A DNA stretch of 53,390 bases, from positions 1 to 53,390 of the IMG/VR virus record IMGVR_UViG_3300025307_000067; one strand, 5' to 3'. The notes under the pieces were generated by a model. The model saw nothing but the letters and a program-made list of their open reading frames with translations, ran no database searches and had not been told where the DNA came from. The stretch is from a virus. This document shows, piece by piece, positions 2,516 through 37,210 of the stretch; position 1 is the stretch's first letter, and each line of letters starts with the position of its first letter. The position numbers were made by a program, and so were the translations under genes.

Positions 2516-4042
2516 CTAATTATTTCCCCTCACAAAAGAAGAATCAATCACCGCTTGACCAAGCTCTATGCATTGTAGAATAGTCACCTGGTTGGCGAGG
2601 ATGCTCTTGTCGTCTCGCTGAACACTTACTCCAATCCTTGCCCTCATGGCTTCACGCTCACTATCCGTCTGATCCAAGCTAATCATCCCGTCAACATCAC
2701 CTAAGATAGCCACAGATTCTCCAATGTCCGATCTTTTCTTTGTCTTCCTCTCAATAGCTTCTTTACTGCCTGCTTGGAATGGCATTATCAATAAACTATG
2801 ATATTGTTGGGCCAGGGCCACTGCAAACCGGCGATTATCAACTATTGTATGTCTATCTGTTTGTCCGGGTTTCTTCATTAAGTCTGGAGAGTCTATAACA
2901 ATTACATCTGGGACGAACCCTTCCAGATGTTCCCAAACCTGAAGGGTGGCTTTTACCTCTGATATGCCAGCAGAATACATTGGCCAGTACTGGAATTTGA
3001 ATCTAGCTCCGCGAAGCTGCTTTGAAATCCCCTCTGCTTTTCTCCAGGCATTGCGCCATGTCAAGACGTCACATTTCCATTCTTCGGCCCAGGTTTCCAT
3101 TTGCCAACTCTTCTGTCCTCGACAGACCGCGCATGGTTTGTATCCTGGGTGCTCCTGGCCAAATATCGGTCTTGGTTCTTCTCCTTTGTACAAGGTTATG
3201 CCACAAGTTCGGTCGGGTCGATAGCAAGATCCATCTTGATTGAATTTGCAATCCCAGACCGGCATCCAGATTTTACCATCCTTTGGTGGGCGAATTGGCA
3301 TTGCACAGATGGATTGGATGAACCTGCGAGTCTCTTTTCTCTTATTCATTTCAAAACTGAATCTGGCTACATTCAATCTATTATAGAGGGCTTGATCTTG
3401 GATATAAGTACAAGCCCAGGATTTGCCTGCTTTGTAGGCCCCTACCAAGCCCCAAGCATCTTCTCTTACCATCGGTCCAAGTAGTCTGCCAAGATCTCCA
3501 GGAAGAGTGAATAATTCATCATCAGTTGTGAAGGCGTCTCTGACTGACTCCATATCTCTAAGCGGTTCACAACCCAAGGTCACTACTTTCTCTGGGGCGA
3601 TGAAATTGGCTACTGATTCTCTGGCTGCTAGGATGTTTCCTTGACCAAGTCTTTCTTCAAGGTCTTCTTTCAGGAGTGTGAGGGCACGCTCCTCAAAGTA
3701 TTGTTGTGCTTGGTCAAGGAGATATTCTTCATTGAACTCACCTTGTTCATAGCTTTCTGATATAGAACTGAGAAATTGACCGATAAGCTCAGAAAGATCT
3801 GAATCCATGCCGGCTCGACGGTTGGCTTCATACAAGTCCTGGATATGACCTTGAGGAGCGCGATCATATTGGGCCAAATATTCCAATGCCCACAAGGCCA
3901 CTTTTTGCATATAAGGTACAGTCAGATAGCGTGGTTTGTAAGCTAATGCTAGATTGCGGAGCACCCTATCAGAGATTATCATTCCAGTAAGGATCGAACG
4001 TTCGATCTGGGTGTCGGCTCTTTGGCGGGTCCAAGTGGTCAA
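2516..4042 (-). CDS. DnaB-like replicative helicase
   Basis: 508-residue RecA-fold ATPase resembling phage DnaB/gp41 helicases. An N-terminal helical region (about 1-150) is followed by the ATPase core with Walker A GAYKAGKSW and Walker B VIVIDSPD. A Cys-rich insertion between them (CKFNQDGSCYRPDRTC and CAVCRGQ) looks like a zinc-binding module not usual in DnaB. The start is a TTG at 4042 just after the upstream stop at 4046; an internal ATG 21 codons on is the alternative. Its partner is probably the TOPRIM primase at 9594-10484. Confidence 0.85.
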   Translation of the reverse strand: MTTWTRQRADTQIERSILTGMIISDRVLRNLALAYKPRYLTVPYMQKVALWALEYLAQYDRAPQGHIQDLYEANRRAGMDSDLSELIGQFLSSISESYEQGEFNEEYLLDQAQQYFEERALTLLKEDLEERLGQGNILAARESVANFIAPEKVVTLGCEPLRDMESVRDAFTTDDELFTLPGDLGRLLGPMVREDAWGLVGAYKAGKSWACTYIQDQALYNRLNVARFSFEMNKRKETRRFIQSICAMPIRPPKDGKIWMPVWDCKFNQDGSCYRPDRTCGITLYKGEEPRPIFGQEHPGYKPCAVCRGQKSWQMETWAEEWKCDVLTWRNAWRKAEGISKQLRGARFKFQYWPMYSAGISEVKATLQVWEHLEGFVPDVIVIDSPDLMKKPGQTDRHTIVDNRRFAVALAQQYHSLLIMPFQAGSKEAIERKTKKRSDIGESVAILGDVDGMISLDQTDSEREAMRARIGVSVQRDDKSILANQVTILQCIELGQAVIDSSFVRGNN

Positions 4043-23618: not shown

Positions 23619-24449
23619 ATGGTTGAGCGCATTCCATATATAGATAATAATTTAATAAAGCGAGGCAGAGAACGCCCTAAGGGGAGCAAGAATAGCCCTG
23701 GCCATAAGGCGGGTAGGCCAAGCAATGGGAAATCACAGCATAACCTATCTATTAAACCCATCGTAGAACCTAATGTAACAGCCGCTACTAAGAGTTCTCT
23801 TCCGATTAGGGTAAAGGAGCCACCCCAGACTATAAACTTGAATACAACGAGTCATACCAAGCCGGTTAGGCTACCTTATATAGAATGCACTGACGGTCAC
23901 AATTACCCTCCTGTATTAGACTTGACTCTACCTTCTAATGGAAACGGTAAACCAAAGCCTACGAATCCGATTCCTCCTAATGTGGCCCGTTCGGTAATAC
24001 AGTCTGGTTTGAATGAGGAGTTGATCACCCCAGAGCAGATCATTAAAGAAGTGATGAAGATAGCAACCTCTGATATTAGGCTACTCCCCGGTTGCCCTAA
24101 GGGGATTCCGGATGATATAGCGGCGGCCATATCGTCTATTGCTTTAAATCCTCTTGTATATGAAGGAAAACCGATTCTAGGTCCAGACGGAAAAGTTCTT
24201 TGTCAAGTAAGATATAATCTCTGGAGTAAATCTTCTGCCCACGACCAGCTTATGAAATGGGCCGGGCTATATTCACAAGACAATGCTCAGACCAAGCCCA
24301 GTATAAATCTACAGCAGAATATCCAGGTCAACCAAGTCAATCTTAAGGATTTCTCCAAGGAAGAGCTTTTAGCCTTGTATAAGCTGGGAATATTGAAAAG
24401 TCAGAGCGAAGAGATGCTGCTCTTACCAGAAAAAAGTTCATGTGATTGA
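23619..24449 (+). CDS. probable small terminase subunit
   Basis: 276 residues. A basic, low-complexity N-terminus with AT-hook-like KGSKNSPGHKAGRPS precedes a helical C-terminal half. LWSKSSAHDQLMKWAGLY resembles the closing block of small terminases (K-x-A-L-E-x-L-G-x-H-x-G-L), with oligomerising helices after it. RIPY at the start and KPVRLPY at about residue 85 repeat the motif seen in other proteins here. There is no ribosome site, and the promoter predicts transcription starting at the ATG, so the mRNA may be leaderless. First gene of the packaging arm. An unrelated DNA-binding role cannot be excluded. Confidence 0.6.
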   Translation: MVERIPYIDNNLIKRGRERPKGSKNSPGHKAGRPSNGKSQHNLSIKPIVEPNVTAATKSSLPIRVKEPPQTINLNTTSHTKPVRLPYIECTDGHNYPPVLDLTLPSNGNGKPKPTNPIPPNVARSVIQSGLNEELITPEQIIKEVMKIATSDIRLLPGCPKGIPDDIAAAISSIALNPLVYEGKPILGPDGKVLCQVRYNLWSKSSAHDQLMKWAGLYSQDNAQTKPSINLQQNIQVNQVNLKDFSKEELLALYKLGILKSQSEEMLLLPEKSSCD

Positions 24450-24461
24450 GTTGATTCATAC

Positions 24462-24474
24462 TATAATATAAGTG
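24462..24474 (+). promoter_or_regulatory. extended -10 promoter of the structured RNA
   Basis: ATACTATAATATAAGT, identical over 14 bases (ACTATAATATAAGT) to the promoter of the TIGR operon at 29451. TATAAT at 24462-24467; start predicted near 24474. Confidence 0.6.
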
Positions 24475-24893
24475 AATGGAGGAGGCGGGTGAGTAAGACG
24501 GTTGTACAAGATCACGCATTACTCGCTAACTTCGCCCCGGTGATACACCCGTGTAGAGTGGGCCTTCTCTGTCACCCGGGCTGGTGGAGGGCTGCTGAGA
24601 TTGCCGACTACTATTGATTTCGTCGGCCAGTATGCAGCCCCTCTCGCTCCCGCTGGCGAGGAAGAGTGCAGCGGTGACTCGGCTGTGGCCACCGAGGTCG
24701 TTAGACAGAGAGTAAGGCTCAATGTTTCGGTGGCATCTGCTTCAAGGAGGAACTAGATTGAGTAACCCTAATGGAACGCCGCGGCACTGGAGTGCCAAAG
24801 GCCCAGATGCCCAGACACTGGTGAGCTTTTGGCAAGGGAAATCCTCCTAAGGCCCGCCGGGAGCCTAATGAAATCCCGGCCTTGATTTTTTAA
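24474..24893 (+). ncRNA. ~420-nt structured non-coding RNA of unknown class
   Basis: No credible gene on either strand, yet GC-rich with nested hairpins: CCCCGGUG with CACCCGGG, CUCGC with GCGAG, ACUCGG with CCGAGGU, and GGCAC-UGGA-GUGCC. It has its own promoter and a strong terminator. It is next to a tmRNA, where phages often keep large structured RNAs (GOLLD, ROOL), but I see no signature for either, nor for RNase P or 6S RNA. Confidence 0.6.
24849..24891 (+). terminator. intrinsic terminator of the structured RNA
   Basis: AAGGC, CCG bulge, CCGGGA, loop, TCCCGG, CCTT, then GATTTTTT. A long GC stem with a U-tract. Confidence 0.8.
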
Positions 24894-24916
24894 TTAGCTT
24901 GCAAGTAGGCATAGAT

Positions 24917-25162
24917 ATGGCGGTGAAGATTCCACGAGAGCAGATAGCCAGTTCGATTTCAGACCCCTGTCTTCAATCACTGACTTTTAAAGAAGTGCTT
25001 TCGTGTTTTAAAAAAGCAAACAAAGTACTTGGTAAAAACGGCGATGTTGATATTGAGGTTTGGATAGAAAACAAAATGTATAGAATTGTGAGGGTAGGAC
25101 AATTTAGTTTTGTTCCCACAGTTACCTTAACATTGGTCGATAAACCAGAATTTGAATTATAA
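24917..25162 (+). CDS. small protein of unknown function
   Basis: 81 residues starting MAVKIPREQIASSISD. Contains LTFKEVLSCFKKANKVLG and GDVDIEVWIENKMYRIV, a mixed helix-strand layout. The ribosome site is weak, and a TTG at 24899 is the alternative start. Lies between the structured RNA and the tmRNA. Confidence 0.6.
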   Translation: MAVKIPREQIASSISDPCLQSLTFKEVLSCFKKANKVLGKNGDVDIEVWIENKMYRIVRVGQFSFVPTVTLTLVDKPEFEL

Positions 25163-25165
25163 TCA

Positions 25166-25518
25166 GGGGGTGTAATGGTTTCGACGGTGGCAGGAAATCA
25201 TAGTTGCGTTCCGGGGCCAACTTCCGTTAATGTTGGACATGGCACACTTGCCGACTCTTACTACCAACTGAAAGCGGCTTAAGGCACGCTTTCCGTTCGT
25301 ACTGATGATTTCAGATAGTCAGATGCGGGCGTCAAACCTAATCTGGATAGGAGATATGATGTTGCTGCATCGTCATTATCCGAAGTTTAGCGCAGCTGGT
25401 CTGGCAGGAGTTGATCTCAGAGCAATATTGCCGGGCGAGACGGAGTCTGAGATTATGAATGTAGATGCTATGGTAGAATGTTCTCCGGACCCGGGTTCGA
25501 CTCCCGGCACCTCCACCA
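25166..25518 (+). ncRNA. ssrA: tmRNA (ssrA), tag ADSYYQLKAA
   Basis: 353 nt. The 5' end GGGGGUGUAAUGGUUUCGACG is the tmRNA signature (split GGGGGUG / UAAUGGUUUCGACG). The 3' end has the T arm CCGGG-TTCGACT-CCCGG and an encoded ACCA. The acceptor stem pairs GGGGGUG (25166-25172) with CACCUCC (25508-25514) and includes the G3-U70 pair read by alanyl-tRNA synthetase. The tag frame runs from the resume codon GCC at 25250 to TAA at 25280-25282, encoding ADSYYQLKAA. Host tags usually end LAA, so KAA may change recognition by ClpXP or SspB. It should rescue stalled ribosomes during infection. Confidence 0.93.
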
Positions 25519-26333: not shown

Positions 26334-27581
26334 GTGATCAAGGCGATCTTATGTCTCTTGCTGTTAATCTCTTATCCAGTGACTGCCGCCAGCCCACTCC
26401 CAGTAAGGGAAGTGACTATGCAGTCCTGGCTCCGTTATGTCAAAACTTGCTCAGACAAGTATGGGATTGACCCAAACTTTGCCTTGGCGGTGGCAGAGAC
26501 GGAATCTTCCAATAAGGAGGTACGATTCAGATTTGGTAAAATGGGCAAAGGAACTTACTACGGACCATTCGGCATCCATAAATGTTTCCTTAACAAATGG
26601 GCAATTAATGATCCGATGGTTAATACGGAGGTGGGAATTAGAGCACTTGCTCGGTATAAGGATCAAAAGAAATCCCTTAAGAAGTACAACGCCTCCTTCA
26701 ACGAAGGATACTGGAAGCGGATAAAGCAGTTGGAACGCCAGAACCGGATGGCTAAGGTCTTTAAGGAGAGCCAAGTGCTGATAGTTGATGGAAACAATTG
26801 TGCGTATAGAGAAGGAATTTCTAAAGCAGGCCTCTCCTATAATGGCAAGCCAACAGGTGCTATTTTAGGATTTCTGAGACAACTCAGATCTCTACTGGAG
26901 ATTTATCCGGGCGAAGTTGCCGTTTGCTGGGATTCCAGACGTTCGCTTCGTAGGGAGTTTCACTCAGAGTACAAGGCGAATCGTAGGAACGGTGGAGAAG
27001 TTCCTGAACAGATCCAAGATGTATTCACTCAGATCGAAGATCTCCGAGATCACATTCTTCCTAGAATAGGCTATCCAAACCAGCATATTCAGGACGGCTA
27101 CGAAGCCGATGATCTGGTGGCGGTCCTATGTCAGAGACCAATCGACGCTTATCGAGTAATCATCTCTTCTGATAACGACCTGTTCCAATGCCTGGGCCCG
27201 TCCGTCTTCATGCATAACGTCTCCACTAAGAAAAAGTATACCTACAAAGACTTCCAGGAAGAATACGGGGTTACCCCCAGGCAATGGCCGGATGTTAAGG
27301 CCATAGCAGGTGACGCAGGGGATAATGTGATTGGTGTGCCTGGAGTAGGACCTAAGACGGCTGTCAAGTACCTGAGCCCGCCTGACGCTAAAGGAAAGAC
27401 GGTGTCCGATAAAGTGTCGCGTCGGATTGAAGAACACCGCGCAATCATCGTTAGAAACACTCGCCTTGTCAAGTTACCTTGGGAAGGCTGTGATCCCGGA
27501 GAGGTTCAGAAATCGCAGTTCAACGAACGGGAATACATTCGGGTCTGTAATGAGTATGGGTTGAATTCTTTGCTGAGGTGA
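26334..27581 (+). CDS. lytic transglycosylase fused to a 5'-3' exonuclease
   Basis: 415 codons from a GTG. Residues 1-19 are a signal peptide (MIKAILCLLLLISYPVTAA). Residues about 25-135 are an SLT-type transglycosylase, with catalytic Glu in VAETESSN, GPFGIHK and the closing YNASFNEGYW. Residues about 145-415 are a FEN/PIN 5'-3' exonuclease with LIVDGNNCAYR, YEADDLVAVL, ISSDNDLFQ and the helix-hairpin-helix GDAGDNVIGVPGVGPKTA. One domain works outside and one inside the cell. An in-frame ATG at 26748 (MAKVFKESQVLIVDGNN) could start the nuclease separately. A true fusion or overlapping products are both possible. Confidence 0.8.
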   Translation: MIKAILCLLLLISYPVTAASPLPVREVTMQSWLRYVKTCSDKYGIDPNFALAVAETESSNKEVRFRFGKMGKGTYYGPFGIHKCFLNKWAINDPMVNTEVGIRALARYKDQKKSLKKYNASFNEGYWKRIKQLERQNRMAKVFKESQVLIVDGNNCAYREGISKAGLSYNGKPTGAILGFLRQLRSLLEIYPGEVAVCWDSRRSLRREFHSEYKANRRNGGEVPEQIQDVFTQIEDLRDHILPRIGYPNQHIQDGYEADDLVAVLCQRPIDAYRVIISSDNDLFQCLGPSVFMHNVSTKKKYTYKDFQEEYGVTPRQWPDVKAIAGDAGDNVIGVPGVGPKTAVKYLSPPDAKGKTVSDKVSRRIEEHRAIIVRNTRLVKLPWEGCDPGEVQKSQFNEREYIRVCNEYGLNSLLR

Positions 27582-27913
27582 TAGAGTTGAATAGAAAAGA
27601 ACATCTTCGTATAGATCAGCTTAGTGAGATTATTCAGAGAAGTCGAAGACAAATATATCGGACTATGGAGCGAGTTGATGTTAGAGGGAATACTTACTTT
27701 AGGGTACCACAAGAAGTGAGAGAAATGGATCCGAACGATCGGCTGATGAAAACCAAAGAAGTCTCAATTCTCTTCTCTATTCATCAGACAACAGCAATTC
27801 GGTGGTTTAATGAAGGGAAATTAAGGGGAGTTAAACTCGGCGAAGGGAACAGTTGTATTCGGATTTTTAAGAGTAGTGTAGATAAATTATTGAAAGAATC
27901 AGACAATGTCTGA
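27578..27913 (+). CDS. double HTH DNA-binding protein
   Basis: 111 residues from a GTG overlapping the previous stop. Two helix-turn-helix stretches: IDQLSEIIQRSRRQIYRTME, and MKTKEVSILFSIHQTTAIRWF with the wing EGKLRGVKLGEGNSCIRI, which is MerR/excisionase-like. It overlaps the start of the large terminase and may bind packaging DNA or regulate the arm. Confidence 0.65.
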   Translation: MIELNRKEHLRIDQLSEIIQRSRRQIYRTMERVDVRGNTYFRVPQEVREMDPNDRLMKTKEVSILFSIHQTTAIRWFNEGKLRGVKLGEGNSCIRIFKSSVDKLLKESDNV

Positions 27914-29411
27914 ACTAGATAAACATCTTCGTGCAGTAGAGGCTGTACAATATCCTACCTCCATAATTCGTGAGCTGTGCAATCGAGATTTTTATTTCTT
28001 CCTAAAGTACTTTTGGCAGTCAATATGTCACGATACATTTCTTTCCAACTGGCACATTGAGTATCTCTGTAGTACTCTTCAAAAGAAAGCCGAACGAGTA
28101 GCAAATCGCCTACCTAATGATTTTGATTTGGTTATCAACGTACCTCCGGGGACGTCGAAAACAATGACCTGTAACGTCATGTTCCCGGTCTGGTGCTGGA
28201 CGAAATGGTACTGGATGCGATTCCTGACATTTGGTTACAACCAGGAGCTTTCCTTAGAAGCAGCAGATAATTCTAGAAACCTGCTTGTCTCACAGATGTT
28301 TCAGGAAGTCTATCCCGAACTGATAATGAAGCGAGGCAAAGAAGGTGTAACCAATTTCAGAATAGTTAAGATTGAGGATGACGGTACTATTAGGTTGGGA
28401 GGAGGTAGGTTTAGCTCCTCTATCTCTGGCACTGGCACCGGTTTCCATGGCGATCTGATTATCATAGATGATCCACTAAATCCAAAACAGGCCGCATCGA
28501 CTGTTGAGCTCAAAAACAGTATTGACTGGCTCGACCAAACCCTCCCTACGCGTAAGACAAATAAAGAAGTTACTCCTACGATCCTAATTATGCAGAGGCT
28601 ACATGAAGGAGATCCATCTGGCCATCTGTTAGCCAAGAAGAAAACTAAAGTCAAGCATATCTGTCTGCCTGGTGAGATCAATACCTCTCAGTATGCAGAC
28701 AAAGTAAGACCAATAGAGTTGGTTAGCAAATATGTGAACGGCCTCCTTGATCCTATTAGACTTCCTCAGTCTGTTTTAATAGGAATGGAAGAGAGTTTAG
28801 GGCAGTATGGTTACGCTGCCCAGTTCGGTCAGTCCCCCACTCCTCCTGCTGGTGGGATGTTTCGTGTAGATCGTTTTGTGATGGTTGAATCTATGCCGTC
28901 TCCATCTACCATAATTCAGACAGTTCGGTCTTGGGATAAAGCGGGAACGAAAGACGGCACAGGGGCCTTTACTGTCGGTACCAAGATTCACAAACTGGCC
29001 AGTGGTAAGTATCTTATATCGGATGTTGTTAGAGGGCGATGGTCAGCAGAGGTCAGAGAGCAGATCATCAGATCAACTGCCGAAGCAGATGGCCCTGGAG
29101 TAGAGATAGTTCACGAACAGGAACCAGGATCAGGTGGTAAGGATAGTGCTCAAGCTACAACCAGAAATCTGGCTGGCTATTCTGTCACGGCCGAACGACC
29201 TATTGGGAACAAGATTGCCAGGGCCGATACTTTGAGTGTGCAGGTTAATATGGGGAACGTGATGTTGTTAAAGGGTTCTTGGAATTATGAATTCATAGAG
29301 GAGTTTCGATATTTTCCTTTCAGTAAGTTCATGGACCAGGTCGATTCTGCTTCGATGGGATTCACTAAGTTGGCTCAAAAGAAACAGGTGTTAGTTTTAG
29401 GGAGGGCCTAA
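27906..29411 (+). CDS. large terminase subunit
   Basis: 501 residues. The packaging ATPase domain (about 1-270) has the Walker A-like VPPGTSKTM, Walker B LIIIDDP and coupling motif TILIMQRLHEGDP. The C-terminal nuclease domain begins TVRSWDKAGTKDGTGAF with its first acidic residue, followed by VEIVHEQEPGSGGKD and the late acid in KIARADTLSVQ. Length and order are standard for TerL. It translocates and cuts concatemeric DNA at the portal. Confidence 0.93.
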   Translation: MSELDKHLRAVEAVQYPTSIIRELCNRDFYFFLKYFWQSICHDTFLSNWHIEYLCSTLQKKAERVANRLPNDFDLVINVPPGTSKTMTCNVMFPVWCWTKWYWMRFLTFGYNQELSLEAADNSRNLLVSQMFQEVYPELIMKRGKEGVTNFRIVKIEDDGTIRLGGGRFSSSISGTGTGFHGDLIIIDDPLNPKQAASTVELKNSIDWLDQTLPTRKTNKEVTPTILIMQRLHEGDPSGHLLAKKKTKVKHICLPGEINTSQYADKVRPIELVSKYVNGLLDPIRLPQSVLIGMEESLGQYGYAAQFGQSPTPPAGGMFRVDRFVMVESMPSPSTIIQTVRSWDKAGTKDGTGAFTVGTKIHKLASGKYLISDVVRGRWSAEVREQIIRSTAEADGPGVEIVHEQEPGSGGKDSAQATTRNLAGYSVTAERPIGNKIARADTLSVQVNMGNVMLLKGSWNYEFIEEFRYFPFSKFMDQVDSASMGFTKLAQKKQVLVLGRA

Positions 29412-29445: not shown

Positions 29446-29460
29446 TTTTACTATAATATA
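29446..29460 (+). promoter_or_regulatory. promoter of the TIGR-Tas-like operon
   Basis: TTTTACTATAATATA with TATAAT at 29452-29457. The transcript should start at about 29464, in the first repeat of the array, so the leader is the array itself. Confidence 0.62.
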
Positions 29461-29652
29461 AGTAGAAGCCAGGGGGGCTGAAGAAAACCATCATAATAAA
29501 GCGAGCCATGGACTGAAAGAAAACCATAGCGAAGAAGCGAGTCATTGAAAGCAAGAAACCCACAAACGTTAAGCGAGCCATGTATGCTAAGAAAACCAAA
29601 GATCATAAGCGGGCCATCAATACCAAGAAGACCAAACAACGTAAGCGTAATT
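29460..29652 (+). repeat. TIGR-like guide array 1
   Basis: From 29481 the sequence repeats every 18 nt: a 10-nt repeat plus an 8-nt variable spacer, with two repeat types alternating (AAGAAAACCA and AAGCGAGCCA). Units start at 29481, 29499, 29517, 29535, 29553, 29571, 29589, 29607, 29625 and a degenerate one at 29643; a variant AAGTAGAAGCCA at 29460 opens the array. The 36-nt super-period with two short spacers is the layout of tigRNA-coding arrays. TGA inside one unit argues against a coding repeat. Confidence 0.8.
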
Positions 29653-29677
29653 CCTAATCAAAAGGAGAACCTGAAAG

Positions 29678-30454
29678 ATGAGAACAAGCAAAATCAAATT
29701 GGAAGATTTGGTATTCGATGAAAACCTGATCTCCCTGCGGAAAATCAATGACCAGATTGTTGGCCAGTATCGTCAGGCTTATCGAGCTGGTGCCAAAATG
29801 CCTCCGATCATCATCGAGAGGAAAACTAACCGGATCGTCAGTGGCAATCATCGGGTCAAGGCTATGCTCAAGGAATATGAGTCTGACCATGAAATTGGCG
29901 TTATCGTCAAGGAATATGCCAGTGAGAAAGCTCTGCTGCTGGATGCAGTCAAAGAAAACTCTGAGCACGGCTATCCTCTGGACGGCATCTCCCGTAAGGG
30001 TTTGGCTTGTGCCCTGCGTAATCATGGTGCCTCCCCGGATGAAATGTCGGCAGCCTTTTCGGTCTCCTATACCAAGATCGAAACCTGGTTTGAGGGGACG
30101 GCAGATGTTATGAATGTCGTCACCATCGGAAAAGATGTGCATCGGGTGACGTTGGTGGAGAGAGCTACTGCTCATGTTTCTCCTCCGGGCACCGTAGCAA
30201 TGCCTGTCAAACGTCACTTTCCTTTGGGGAGAACGGTTACTGCTCCTCAGTATGATGAGCACATGAAGAAAGACTTAGGGTTGCCTTTGGGGCAGCTTGC
30301 CTATCAGATTGTGCGGTGGGTCAAGAATGGCTGGATTGAACGGACGTCCCAGAATCTCGCCGCCTTGGTTGACTTGAAACAAGCTCTGGATGGGTTCTTT
30401 GCTGAAGGCGTTGCTCAGATTGGGGATGGAGTTCCCAAAGTGATTGATGGGTGA
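29678..30454 (+). CDS. ParB/Srx-like nuclease-fold protein of the TIGR-Tas-like locus
   Basis: 258 residues. The N-terminal ParB-like fold (about 5-95) shows MPPIIIERKTNRIVSGNHRVKAM, the DGHHR-type motif of ParB-like CTPases and nucleases. The middle (DGISRKGLACALRNHGASPDEMSAAFSVS in pieces) is a helix-turn-helix. The C-terminus is helical. It lies between arrays 1 and 2 and shares the leader AATCAAAAGGAGAACC with the Tas gene, so the two are clearly one unit. It may supply DNA cutting or DNA marking that the Tas protein lacks (inference). Confidence 0.72.
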   Translation: MRTSKIKLEDLVFDENLISLRKINDQIVGQYRQAYRAGAKMPPIIIERKTNRIVSGNHRVKAMLKEYESDHEIGVIVKEYASEKALLLDAVKENSEHGYPLDGISRKGLACALRNHGASPDEMSAAFSVSYTKIETWFEGTADVMNVVTIGKDVHRVTLVERATAHVSPPGTVAMPVKRHFPLGRTVTAPQYDEHMKKDLGLPLGQLAYQIVRWVKNGWIERTSQNLAALVDLKQALDGFFAEGVAQIGDGVPKVIDG

Positions 30455-33631: not shown

Positions 33632-36600
33632 GTGTCAGTGCCGGCTAAAAAATCTAGAAAACCAGGTTATGTTATCTATGGTGGCCAAGGCTCCGGCAAC
33701 TTTGGCCATGCCGGTAGACCTACCCAAGCTAACCTAACCCAGTCTGATACCTCTACTCTCCTACTCGTACCATCTATCAATATCTATGCTAAACTGGCCC
33801 GTGTGGACCCCACCCGCACATTAGTCCTCCGTAATAACTTCGTTGCTCAGATGACGGCCCGTTTTAGAAAACTCAAAGCCATTATACAGAAAGCTGTCGT
33901 TGATGACGATTGCTTTGGTATCGCCAAGCCTGAATCACAAGGAAGAAGGATTGTGGTGCAGGCTGATCTCACCACCCGGGGTGGCAGATCATTCGACTTT
34001 CCTACCTCACAAGAGAAATCAGCCGCCTTCCTGGAGTGGCTCCGAACCCAGGAACAAGCTGGAATATTAGAAACAGTAAGAATCCCCCAGGTAGGCACTG
34101 GTATAGAAAGTGCCTGGACCGACGTTTTCATAAAAGATAGTTACCAGCGCGGTGTCCAACGAGCCAGAGACGAACTCCTCCGCGGAGGTTATGCTGTTCC
34201 ATCTATGGAAGTTACTGGAGGGATATCCGCGAGCATGATGCAACCCATGCATATAAATCGCCTCGGCGTCGCATTTTCACGCACCTTCGATGGACTCAAA
34301 GGTATAACGAGCGCGATGGATACTCAAATCAGTCACGTCCTCACCAAGGGCTTGGCAGATGGAGACGGCCAGGCTACTATTGCCAAGAAACTCCTCGCCA
34401 CCATCGACGGAAACAACGCCGGTACGTTGGGGATAACGGATTCACTTGGACGCTTTATCCCGGCGGAGCGTCGGGCCGCTATGCTGGCTAGGACAGAGGT
34501 CATACGAGCCCATGCGCAAGGCACACTCCAGGAATTTAAGAACTGGGGTGTTGCTGGAGTTGATGTATTGGCTGAGTGGGTAACTGCTGGCTTCAATGTA
34601 TGTCCCGAGTGTCAAGAACTGGCTGAAAAAGGACCATACAAGATTGAAGAAGCGTGGGATATGCTGCCAGCACATCCCCATTGCTTTATTAGCCCTATGA
34701 TTCCGATTTATACATCAACTGGTTGGAGACCAATTGGTACAGTTCAAGTTGGGGATATGGTTCTTACTCATAAAGGGAGATTCAAGAGAGTATATGGTCT
34801 GCCGAGGACTTTGAAACAAACACCAGAAGTTGTTCATTTTAGTCTTCGAGGTTTTGATAACGATGGTGTGACAATGACAACAAACCATCCAGTGTTGGTT
34901 TCGAATAAATTGTTGCCTCCGCATTGGAAAGAAGCTGGAAAATGTACTCTTGAAGATAGGATAGTTTTATTTGCGAGTAGATGTAAAAGATGCGATAAAA
35001 AAATCCCTTGGTTTAGAACTTATTGTTCTGGGAGCTGTTGTAGTTCTGACAATGCAGAAAGGCAATGGGCTGATCCTGCTCATAGAGAAAATGTTAGTAA
35101 AAAGAACAGAGAAGCTAATTTGAGACAATATGCTTCTGGCGAGAGAGACAGATTTGCCACGAAGAAAGCCAACGAAAAAATTCGGAAAATGATTAAAGAT
35201 GGAACTTGGGGAACTTGGATGTGTGATGATTTCTTTAAGAAGGTTTTCCAAGTTACCAATACTCCAGAACAAATAGCTGTCAACTCTGAGAGAATGAAGA
35301 AAAAAAATCCAATGCATGACCCCGCTATTGTTGCGAAAGCGACAGCTTCTCTTATTAAAACTCTTGAGTTGCATCCAGAGAAAAGATTGAATGCAAGAAT
35401 GGCCAAGCATCGCAAAAGCAATAAGATGACAGGCATTGAACAACTAATGGCTCAGCTTCTTGATCGTCTTGGAATCGAATATATTTTTCAATATCCAATT
35501 TTGAGATATGATGTTGATTTTGCTATACCAACTCTGAAGATTGCAATCGAGTGCGATGGTGAATACTGGCATCAAGATAAACAGAAGGATTTGATCAGAC
35601 AAAAGAGGATTGAAGCAGAAGGTTGGTTTGTATTAAGATATACTGAAACAAAGATTAATCAGTGCTTTGATGAAATTGAAGACGAAGTTGTGAGAGTTTT
35701 AGCTAATCATAATGGTGATTATGAATTTGTTGGTCACCCTATCAAGAAAATTGAAAGAAGAACAGTTACAAAGCCATTGACTTTATATAATCTTGCTGTT
35801 GAGGAAGATGAATCATATATAGCAAGGGGATTAGTGGTTCACAATTGCCGCTGTGCCTGGCTGGCAAAACCAATAGATGGCAAGGAGAAGACCCCAGTTG
35901 AGGTGGCGCCGGAAGATATAGTCAGTATCATTTCTCCAGAAGATTCAGTTTTTGATAGCATTGCCAACAACTATCTCGAGTCTCCATCATCTATACAAGG
36001 CAGAGATAGAACCCTCGAAGGTCTGGCCGAAACTCAAGGATTTACTCAGCTTCCTAAAGTAGTCTCTGGACAGGAATTTGAAGATATAGTTCAGCAGCAA
36101 GGAATGAAGGAACTTTTTCGCGGGGTTCAGAACAGTAATATCGCTAATATGTTTGCTACCGGTGACTATTATGGTGCAACCGGAGCCTTTGGAAGCGGTA
36201 CATACGCTGCTATGGAGCAGGATTTGGCCAAGTTGTATATGGCCGGGGATAATGCAGTATTAATGAGAATGGGCCTACCAGCAGATGTCAAGATTGGTAA
36301 GTATGCTGATGTCCTTGCAAGTATGAAGCAAGATACAACTTTTGAAAAGGCTGGCAGTAAGGTATTTATGCAAGGATTTAAAGAAAACAGTGAGTTCCTG
36401 GTAGAAAAAGGCAAGGTCATTGAATCTGTTACGAAGGATGTAGGTAGATGGGCGGTGGTTAATGGTTATGATGCTATCCAAGCCCCAGATCAGATGATTA
36501 TATTGAATCGCAGTAAGGTATTGGTCAGCAATGATCTTCTTTCTAGGGAAGGAAAAGTTATTAGATTGCTCCCCGAAACCCCAGCCGCTGGTGTGGTGAA

Positions 36601-37210
36601 GTGGAAGCCGGTTATGAGCAAGGCAGAGGCAGAGAAGTTTATTGAAGGTAGTAAGTATACAGAGGACGTTTATCATGTGACTTATGAGCAGAATGCGAAA
36701 GCAATTATGAATGAAGGTTTTGATTTAGAAAAGAAAGGTTTCGGAAGAGTTTTTGGTGAAGGTGTTTATGCTGGAATGGATTTAGAAACAAAGAGTATTT
36801 ATAGAATAATGGCAGGAGGATTAAAAACTGAGAGCTTAACTCTAAAAGTTAAAGTAGATAATCCATTATTTTTAAGCGGTAGTAAGATGTATGGAATAGA
36901 TAAGACTAATATTTATGAAGACATAGTAAATAAGAAACATCAGTTTATGAAAGAGATTAATAAGAATGATATTAAATTAAGTAACCAGGCAGATATAAAA
37001 TTTCCTGGAAATCCAAGTGGAAAAAGACAATGGCTAAATGAGAATGGTTTTGTAGGATATAGCGAATTGGATTCAAAAGCATTTACTATGGCAGTTAAAG
37101 ATTTCGGATATGATTCGATAATAATAGAAGAAAAAGGCGGGCCAACTAAAATACTAGGTGGAAATCAAATTATTACTTTTGATCCTAAAAAGGTTGTGGT
37201 GATAAAATGA
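33632..37210 (+). CDS. MuF-type head protein with an intein and two C-terminal ADP-ribosyltransferase-like domains
   Basis: 1192 codons from a GTG (AAGGAG upstream); 804 residues after removal of the 388-residue intein. The MuF domain (about 160-350 plus 739-750) has ARTEVIRAHAQGTLQEF and the closing CPECQELAEKG ... HPH/CRCAW motif. Its C-terminal domains are toxin-like. The first (about 805-970) has KELFRGVQ and GAFGSGTYAAMEQDLAKLY. The second (about 1010-1190) has VYHVTYEQNAKAIMNEGF, FGEGVYAGMD and FGYDSIIIEEKGG. Both resemble ADP-ribosyltransferase folds (H/R, S/Y, E pattern). MuF proteins with effector tails are injected with phage DNA or used as polymorphic toxins. Confidence 0.82.
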   Translation: MSVPAKKSRKPGYVIYGGQGSGNFGHAGRPTQANLTQSDTSTLLLVPSINIYAKLARVDPTRTLVLRNNFVAQMTARFRKLKAIIQKAVVDDDCFGIAKPESQGRRIVVQADLTTRGGRSFDFPTSQEKSAAFLEWLRTQEQAGILETVRIPQVGTGIESAWTDVFIKDSYQRGVQRARDELLRGGYAVPSMEVTGGISASMMQPMHINRLGVAFSRTFDGLKGITSAMDTQISHVLTKGLADGDGQATIAKKLLATIDGNNAGTLGITDSLGRFIPAERRAAMLARTEVIRAHAQGTLQEFKNWGVAGVDVLAEWVTAGFNVCPECQELAEKGPYKIEEAWDMLPAHPHCFISPMIPIYTSTGWRPIGTVQVGDMVLTHKGRFKRVYGLPRTLKQTPEVVHFSLRGFDNDGVTMTTNHPVLVSNKLLPPHWKEAGKCTLEDRIVLFASRCKRCDKKIPWFRTYCSGSCCSSDNAERQWADPAHRENVSKKNREANLRQYASGERDRFATKKANEKIRKMIKDGTWGTWMCDDFFKKVFQVTNTPEQIAVNSERMKKKNPMHDPAIVAKATASLIKTLELHPEKRLNARMAKHRKSNKMTGIEQLMAQLLDRLGIEYIFQYPILRYDVDFAIPTLKIAIECDGEYWHQDKQKDLIRQKRIEAEGWFVLRYTETKINQCFDEIEDEVVRVLANHNGDYEFVGHPIKKIERRTVTKPLTLYNLAVEEDESYIARGLVVHNCRCAWLAKPIDGKEKTPVEVAPEDIVSIISPEDSVFDSIANNYLESPSSIQGRDRTLEGLAETQGFTQLPKVVSGQEFEDIVQQQGMKELFRGVQNSNIANMFATGDYYGATGAFGSGTYAAMEQDLAKLYMAGDNAVLMRMGLPADVKIGKYADVLASMKQDTTFEKAGSKVFMQGFKENSEFLVEKGKVIESVTKDVGRWAVVNGYDAIQAPDQMIILNRSKVLVSNDLLSREGKVIRLLPETPAAGVVKWKPVMSKAEAEKFIEGSKYTEDVYHVTYEQNAKAIMNEGFDLEKKGFGRVFGEGVYAGMDLETKSIYRIMAGGLKTESLTLKVKVDNPLFLSGSKMYGIDKTNIYEDIVNKKHQFMKEINKNDIKLSNQADIKFPGNPSGKRQWLNENGFVGYSELDSKAFTMAVKDFGYDSIIIEEKGGPTKILGGNQIITFDPKKVVVIK
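34682..35845 (+). mobile_element. intein with an EDxHD/Vsr-like homing nuclease
   Basis: 388 residues inserted in the conserved HPH/CRC motif of the MuF domain. It begins with Cys (CFISPMIPIYTSTGWRPIGT), has block B TTNHPVLVS, and ends LVVHN before Cys+1. The central part has a Cys-rich segment (CKRCDKKIPW, CSGSC), NUMOD-like basic repeats, and a nuclease core YDVDFAIPTL, IECDGEYWH, RIEAEGWFVLRYTE. Canonical splice residues (Cys1, His-Asn, Cys+1) suggest it is active. Confidence 0.9.

Follow-up and report, generated by a model that had tools for sequence, protein, structure and literature searches.

Few structured RNAs have, to our knowledge, been described in phages, and we know of no function for the large ones (GOLLD and ROOL). 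Ribosome-mediated attenuators (trp-type, tnaC) and the regulated rescue genes arfA and brfA provide, between them, examples of a short open reading frame led by a Shine-Dalgarno sequence, alternative hairpins, an intrinsic terminator and a downstream gene concerned with translation quality. GOLLD has a conserved 3′ part and a variable 5′ part (PMC12286853), and in phage Melnitz a two-piece tmRNA is reported to be controlled by a glutamine riboswitch (PMC9004378).

The stretch of DNA analysed here (the window) covers the 53,390 bases of a virus record, with leftward genes in its left half and rightward genes in its right half. Between a TerS-like open reading frame and a phage tmRNA it carries an element which, judged from its sequence, is real, conserved and mostly non-coding, and which probably represents a new and very rare family of structured phage non-coding RNA with no Rfam class. 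The locus contains:

23619-24449, TerS-like open reading frame, directly upstream of the element
24474-24893, + strand, the whole structured RNA element (predicted transcript from ~24474 to ~24891)
24899-25162, orphan open reading frame of 87 aa, between the element and the tmRNA
25166-25518, + strand, phage tmRNA (Rfam, 132.7 bits)
27906-29411, rightward, terminase large subunit (TerL), in the right half of the window

The TerS name is a guess from position, and Pfam and PHROG gave no match to this reading frame. The short tag that the tmRNA encodes is ADSYYQLKAA (ADSYLQLKAA for the related virus L003 described below) and lacks the usual ALAA end.

Like ROOL and GOLLD, the element is phage-encoded, large and structured, and it lies beside a tRNA-type gene as those RNAs often do; however, it has no Rfam score, is shorter than GOLLD, contains a Shine-Dalgarno-led reading frame and is found beside tmRNA in just two viruses. 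Its arrangement of reading frame, hairpins and terminator recalls that of the trp-type and tnaC attenuators and of arfA and brfA, although it is 420-490 nt in length, has no run of regulatory codons, and its alternative pairing is not beyond chance. As in T-box leaders, a block that contains UGG and could pair with a CCA end is situated upstream of a terminator, but here the pairing would be with tmRNA and the block (UGGUGGAGG) is in helices P2/P3 rather than in an antiterminator bulge. The Melnitz riboswitch is likewise a structured RNA in one operon with a phage tmRNA, although its aptamer is of the known glnA type and its tmRNA is in two pieces (PMC9004378), whereas here the element matches no Rfam aptamer and is situated upstream of a one-piece tmRNA.

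Searches for known families

An initial reading of the sequence alone had placed the RNA in no recognised class, and Rfam covariance searches of both homologues in gathering and permissive modes (E ≤10) agree, with only chance-level scores. That sequence-only reading also named GOLLD and ROOL as large phage RNAs of this kind, while seeing no diagnostic motif. A free-standing large RNA like these is not supported, and neither family gives a match: scanning both homologues with the whole Rfam library (E ≤10) did not recover the GOLLD model (conserved 3′ domain), and ROOL (RF03087), which is likewise missing from the Rfam scans of the window, gave no match at E ≤10 when searched alone there, in a search run without a positive control. 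There was no Rfam score for the T-box (RF00230). RNase P RNA, considered on account of a GAGGAAAGU-like loop, had no Rfam match, and conservation does not extend to the remaining motifs; group I and II introns and rRNA fragments were also rejected, with no Rfam matches.

Conservation and distribution

We identified a single independent homologue of the element, in L003 (IMGVR_UViG_3300027902_000329), at positions 3042-3532 (491 nt, ~70% identical), where the gene order (TerS, element, tmRNA, TerL) is the same as in the window. A further contig, L095, is from the window virus itself (8,825 bases, 100% identical), and all comparisons are thus of two independent sequences (n=2). Both viruses keep the −10 element and the terminator as well as several long blocks, and indels are mostly within the variable parts. 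Of the ~420 nt of the element, conservation is confined to about the 3′ 320 nt and does not include the 5′ 100 nt. Its adjacency to tmRNA holds for L003, in which the tmRNA (91% identical to that of the window) begins 45 nt past the T-run; in the window the orphan 87-aa reading frame intervenes, and this has no family match and is missing from L003. The two genomes also differ in how the 5′-3′ exonuclease is encoded, with one 415-aa reading frame in the window (26334-27581) and two (146 and 268 aa) in L003 (5463-6711).

Searches of IMG/VR with three proteins (TerL, TerS and exonuclease) and with five DNA patterns recovered only L003 (plus L095 from the same virus), and no further homologue was found in GTDB genomes (one DNA pattern) or by blastn against phage and plasmid collections. 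The GTDB pattern match lies in a Ureibacillus MAG, where it corresponds to the Shine-Dalgarno sequence and TTG start of a gene for a transporter. Most matches to CTTCAAGGAGGAACTA are in unrelated contigs, and a longer 21-base version matched only this transporter start site; matches to AAGGCCCGCCGGGAGCCTA in L101-L105 have only a hairpin in common with the element. This hairpin, AAGGCCCGCCGGGAGCCTATCCCGGC, occurs in these unrelated phages at L101 7484-7502, L102 11585-11603, L103 417-435 (− strand), L104 2874-2892 and L105 6731-6749 (− strand), twice per contig in L103 and L105, and at least sometimes lies between a stop codon (directly 5′) and a Shine-Dalgarno sequence, without a T-run.

A set of 38 TerL-related virus records, which includes many fragments, yielded no tmRNA at the family cut-off and no copy of the element around the terminases. 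The element and the tmRNA co-occur in the only two viruses of the TerL-related group known to have either, but because these form one clade the co-occurrence counts as one event. Two phages with related terminases contain Type-P3 twister ribozymes (L029 5232-5298 and L037 1409-1481, both on the − strand).

Promoter and terminator

The element is preceded by a sequence, TATAATATAAG (24462-24472), upstream of the predicted start at 24474 by a distance given as about 7 nt, and it ends in a hairpin and T-run:

24459-24473, + strand, phage promoter element TACTATAATATAAGT (−10 region), with an exact second copy at 29449-29463
24856-24891, + strand, intrinsic terminator GCCGGGA / UCCCGGC followed by CUUGAUUUUUU (hairpin 24856-24880, T6 at 24886-24891)

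The second copy of the 15-mer TACTATAATATAAGT (0 mismatches) is just 3′ of the terminase gene, and eight sites with ≤3 mismatches are present where 1.2 are expected. CTATAATATAAGT is retained in L003 (3030-3042), where TTGTCG, 17 nt upstream, is a scorable −35 (10/12). The proposal that the RNA has its own promoter gains from this recurrence and conservation, although the −35 in the window is poor and a generic promoter scan made no call at 24462-24472. A consensus promoter scan found none between the element and the tmRNA, including in L003. L003 retains the terminator hairpin and a T-run, but the description of the terminator as strong is unsupported, as the loop is 11 nt and the spacer before the T-run is short. 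At 29449-29680 the second TACTATAATATAAGT copy is followed by a 36-42-nt repeat coding for a Lys/Arg-rich repeat peptide (KKT...KRA...), the frame of which has an in-frame TGA.

Secondary structure

The element is GC-rich and foldable, as anticipated, with 56% GC versus 44% for the window, and a + strand minimum free energy (MFE) of −164.9 kcal/mol that beats 100/100 dinucleotide shuffles (z −2.66; − strand z −1.71). The RNAalifold consensus energy against column shuffles has a z of −3.5 for the + strand, compared with −2.8 for the tmRNA control and −0.15 to −1.94 for coding controls (+ strand); because the antisense strand scores as well or better (z −4.5), this supports structure but not strand. 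A fold compatible with both viruses includes the following:

24579-24684, + strand, P2 (tentative), GGCUGG (24579-24584) / UCGGCU (24679-24684), invariant, enclosing P3 and P4
24582-24590, + strand, UGGUGGAGG, perfectly complementary to CCUCCACCA at the 3′ end of the tmRNA (25510-25518), within an 18-nt invariant block
24586-24644, + strand, P3, GGAGGGCUGC / GCAGCCCCUC, with inner P3b (24603-24608/24622-24627)
24648-24676, + strand, P4 hairpin with conserved loop GAGGAA
24688-24734, + strand, P5, GCCACCGAG / UUCGGUGGC, from a model of the window virus only, aligned to L003
24745-24848, + strand, P6, AGGAGGA / UCCUCCU, invariant, which would hide the Shine-Dalgarno sequence

There are about two to four compensatory changes in the element between the two independent sequences. 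Two P4 pairs differ in both partners (U-A to C-G, and U-G to A-U); P3b has C-G in the window and G-C in L003, although this depends on placement of a one-nt gap. In P3, P3b and P4 together, 45/45 scored cells are paired, with two double-sided changes, and P5 is kept in L003 apart from a single C.C mismatch, with one C-G pair replaced by U-A. Built from the window virus alone, a covariance model reaches 59 bits (E 1.1e-12) in a full-length alignment to L003, and a sequence-only model scores 46.8 bits over part of the length (E 1.6e-12), the two E-values being equal. A substitution-permutation test has no power, as the tmRNA control also has a z near 0, and the proposed joint fold is not the MFE fold of either sequence, lying 18-27 kcal/mol above each MFE. 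For these reasons, and with n=2 sequences, the comparative alignment that the initial reading had named as a check, here with L003, yields covariation that is suggestive only.

Coding potential

No + strand open reading frame of ≥60 aa is present in the element and no database protein matched it, and the initial impression that there is no gene survives to that extent, but the 3′ third of the element has a 30-codon TTG frame with a perfect Shine-Dalgarno sequence, the one internal + strand frame that is plausible:

24744-24850, + strand, Shine-Dalgarno AAGGAGG (24744-24750) and TTG open reading frame of 30 codons (24758-24850; stop 24848-24850)
24818-24860, + strand, possible antiterminator, CUGGUGAGCUUU (24818-24829) / AAGGCCCGCCGG (24849-24860), which excludes the terminator and hairpin 24798-24829

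A 29-codon frame is at the same place in L003, where the Shine-Dalgarno and TTG context is identical but for one base, and it stays open despite a 3-nt indel and compensating +1/−1 indels. A 42-codon frame in the 5′ region of the window element is not conserved. Conservation between the window and L003 is nonetheless at the level of nucleotides rather than codons: substitutions by codon position (31/21/36, p=0.14) have no periodicity, whereas three flanking genes tested do (p<0.001), and in the TTG frame only one of 13 conserved codons differs synonymously, compared with ~50% in TerS and TerL (p=0.002). The two peptides are 50% identical, with no family match and no convincing tblastn relative in phages. 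Together these observations indicate that constraint is mostly on the nucleotide sequence, although the frame may still encode a leader peptide.

Possible roles of the element

We favour a stand-alone phage non-coding RNA that acts in trans and is tied to the tmRNA locus, to which we would assign about an even chance, and which is likely a better account than a leader of the tmRNA transcript. We infer that a TATAATATAAGT promoter belonging to the phage, immediately 3′ of the TerS-like gene, would drive transcription, and that the RNA would end at the intrinsic terminator and mature as a separate molecule. Its functional body would be the conserved 3′ 320 nt (P2-P6 and the terminator), with the 5′ 100-150 nt as a variable domain, and it would act as an RNA during infection on the translation or ribosome-rescue machinery, together with the neighbouring tmRNA, possibly by pairing of its UGGUGGAGG block with tmRNA CCA ends. 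GGCUGGUGGAGGGCUGCU, which is longer than any other invariant block in the 5′ body, contains UGGUGGAGG, the sole Watson-Crick 9-mer in the element complementary to tmRNA, which falls on the 3′ CCA end of the tmRNA; 22/5000 shuffles of the element hold UGGUGGAGG. The complementarity was noticed post hoc, chance alone would give 0.46 such 9-mers over the tmRNA as a whole, and the proposed fold itself pairs this block in P2/P3. The number of independent sequences (n=2) and the maintenance of the open Shine-Dalgarno-led frame count against the stand-alone reading. The frame, and the finding of no promoter before the tmRNA, which favours read-through, make a leader or attenuator a serious alternative that we regard as possible, though clearly short of even. 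Here the element would decide whether the downstream tmRNA is made: a ribosome would start at AAGGAGG-TTG and translate a leader peptide of 29-30 codons, the frame of which crosses two pairing segments and ends immediately ahead of the 5′ arm of the terminator, and this translation would choose between the antiterminator (24818-24860) and the terminator (24856-24880). The Shine-Dalgarno sequence, TTG start, open frame and stop are kept in both viruses, neither segment 2 nor segment 3 varies between them, folding of L003 favours the antiterminator (P 0.94-0.99), the short gap to the L003 tmRNA makes read-through plausible there, and Melnitz provides a precedent. Taken in isolation, the antiterminator hairpin (−18.7 and −22.3 kcal/mol) is more stable than the terminator (−13.8 kcal/mol), and both structures can form. 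However, pairing of segments 2 and 3 is no stronger than in shuffles, of which 677/1000 and 274/1000 equal or exceed it, an unremarkable strength for sequence this rich in GC; attenuation would have no need of the 290 nt upstream, which are in part conserved and structured; and an unrelated reading frame separates the element from the tmRNA in the window.

The other explanations are all less probable. That a small protein is the product, from the 30-codon frame or an antisense frame (24519-24722), with the structure incidental, is doubtful; the start signals are found in both viruses and the identical string is the apparent start site of the Ureibacillus transporter gene, but the divergent peptides, suppressed synonymous change and missing relatives and periodicity described above argue against it. 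A diverged and unrecognised relative of the ornate GOLLD and ROOL RNAs, assembling into RNA cages, seems slightly more doubtful still: it would fit the genomic company (a phage, beside a tRNA-like gene), a size near that of ROOL and a conserved 3′ and variable 5′ part as in GOLLD (PMC12286853), but not the Rfam results. A stricter form of the tmRNA pairing, in which the RNA would serve specifically as partner or sensor of tmRNA and its invariant UGGUGGAGG block would pair with CCUCCACCA of the phage (and perhaps host) tmRNA, capping the acceptor end in trans or, in T-box fashion, reporting the state of tmRNA to the terminator before the tmRNA gene, we consider unlikely. Least probable is a GC-rich relic or horizontally acquired insert with no present function, since although the GC content, patchy distribution and unconserved 5′ part are compatible with it, there are long invariant blocks at ~70% overall identity, the promoter and terminator are kept, and indels fall mostly in the variable parts. 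A phage RNA physically tied to a phage tmRNA, as partner or regulator, would connect an uncharacterised RNA with ribosome rescue, and would offer a reason for some phages having their own tmRNA.

Other features of the window

The window also encodes a head-morphogenesis protein (33632-37210) with an intein bearing a DUF559/Vsr-like endonuclease and a weak PARP-like match at its C-terminus. A QueE-like radical SAM protein is encoded at 77-718 (− strand), and may point to 7-deazaguanine modification of the DNA.
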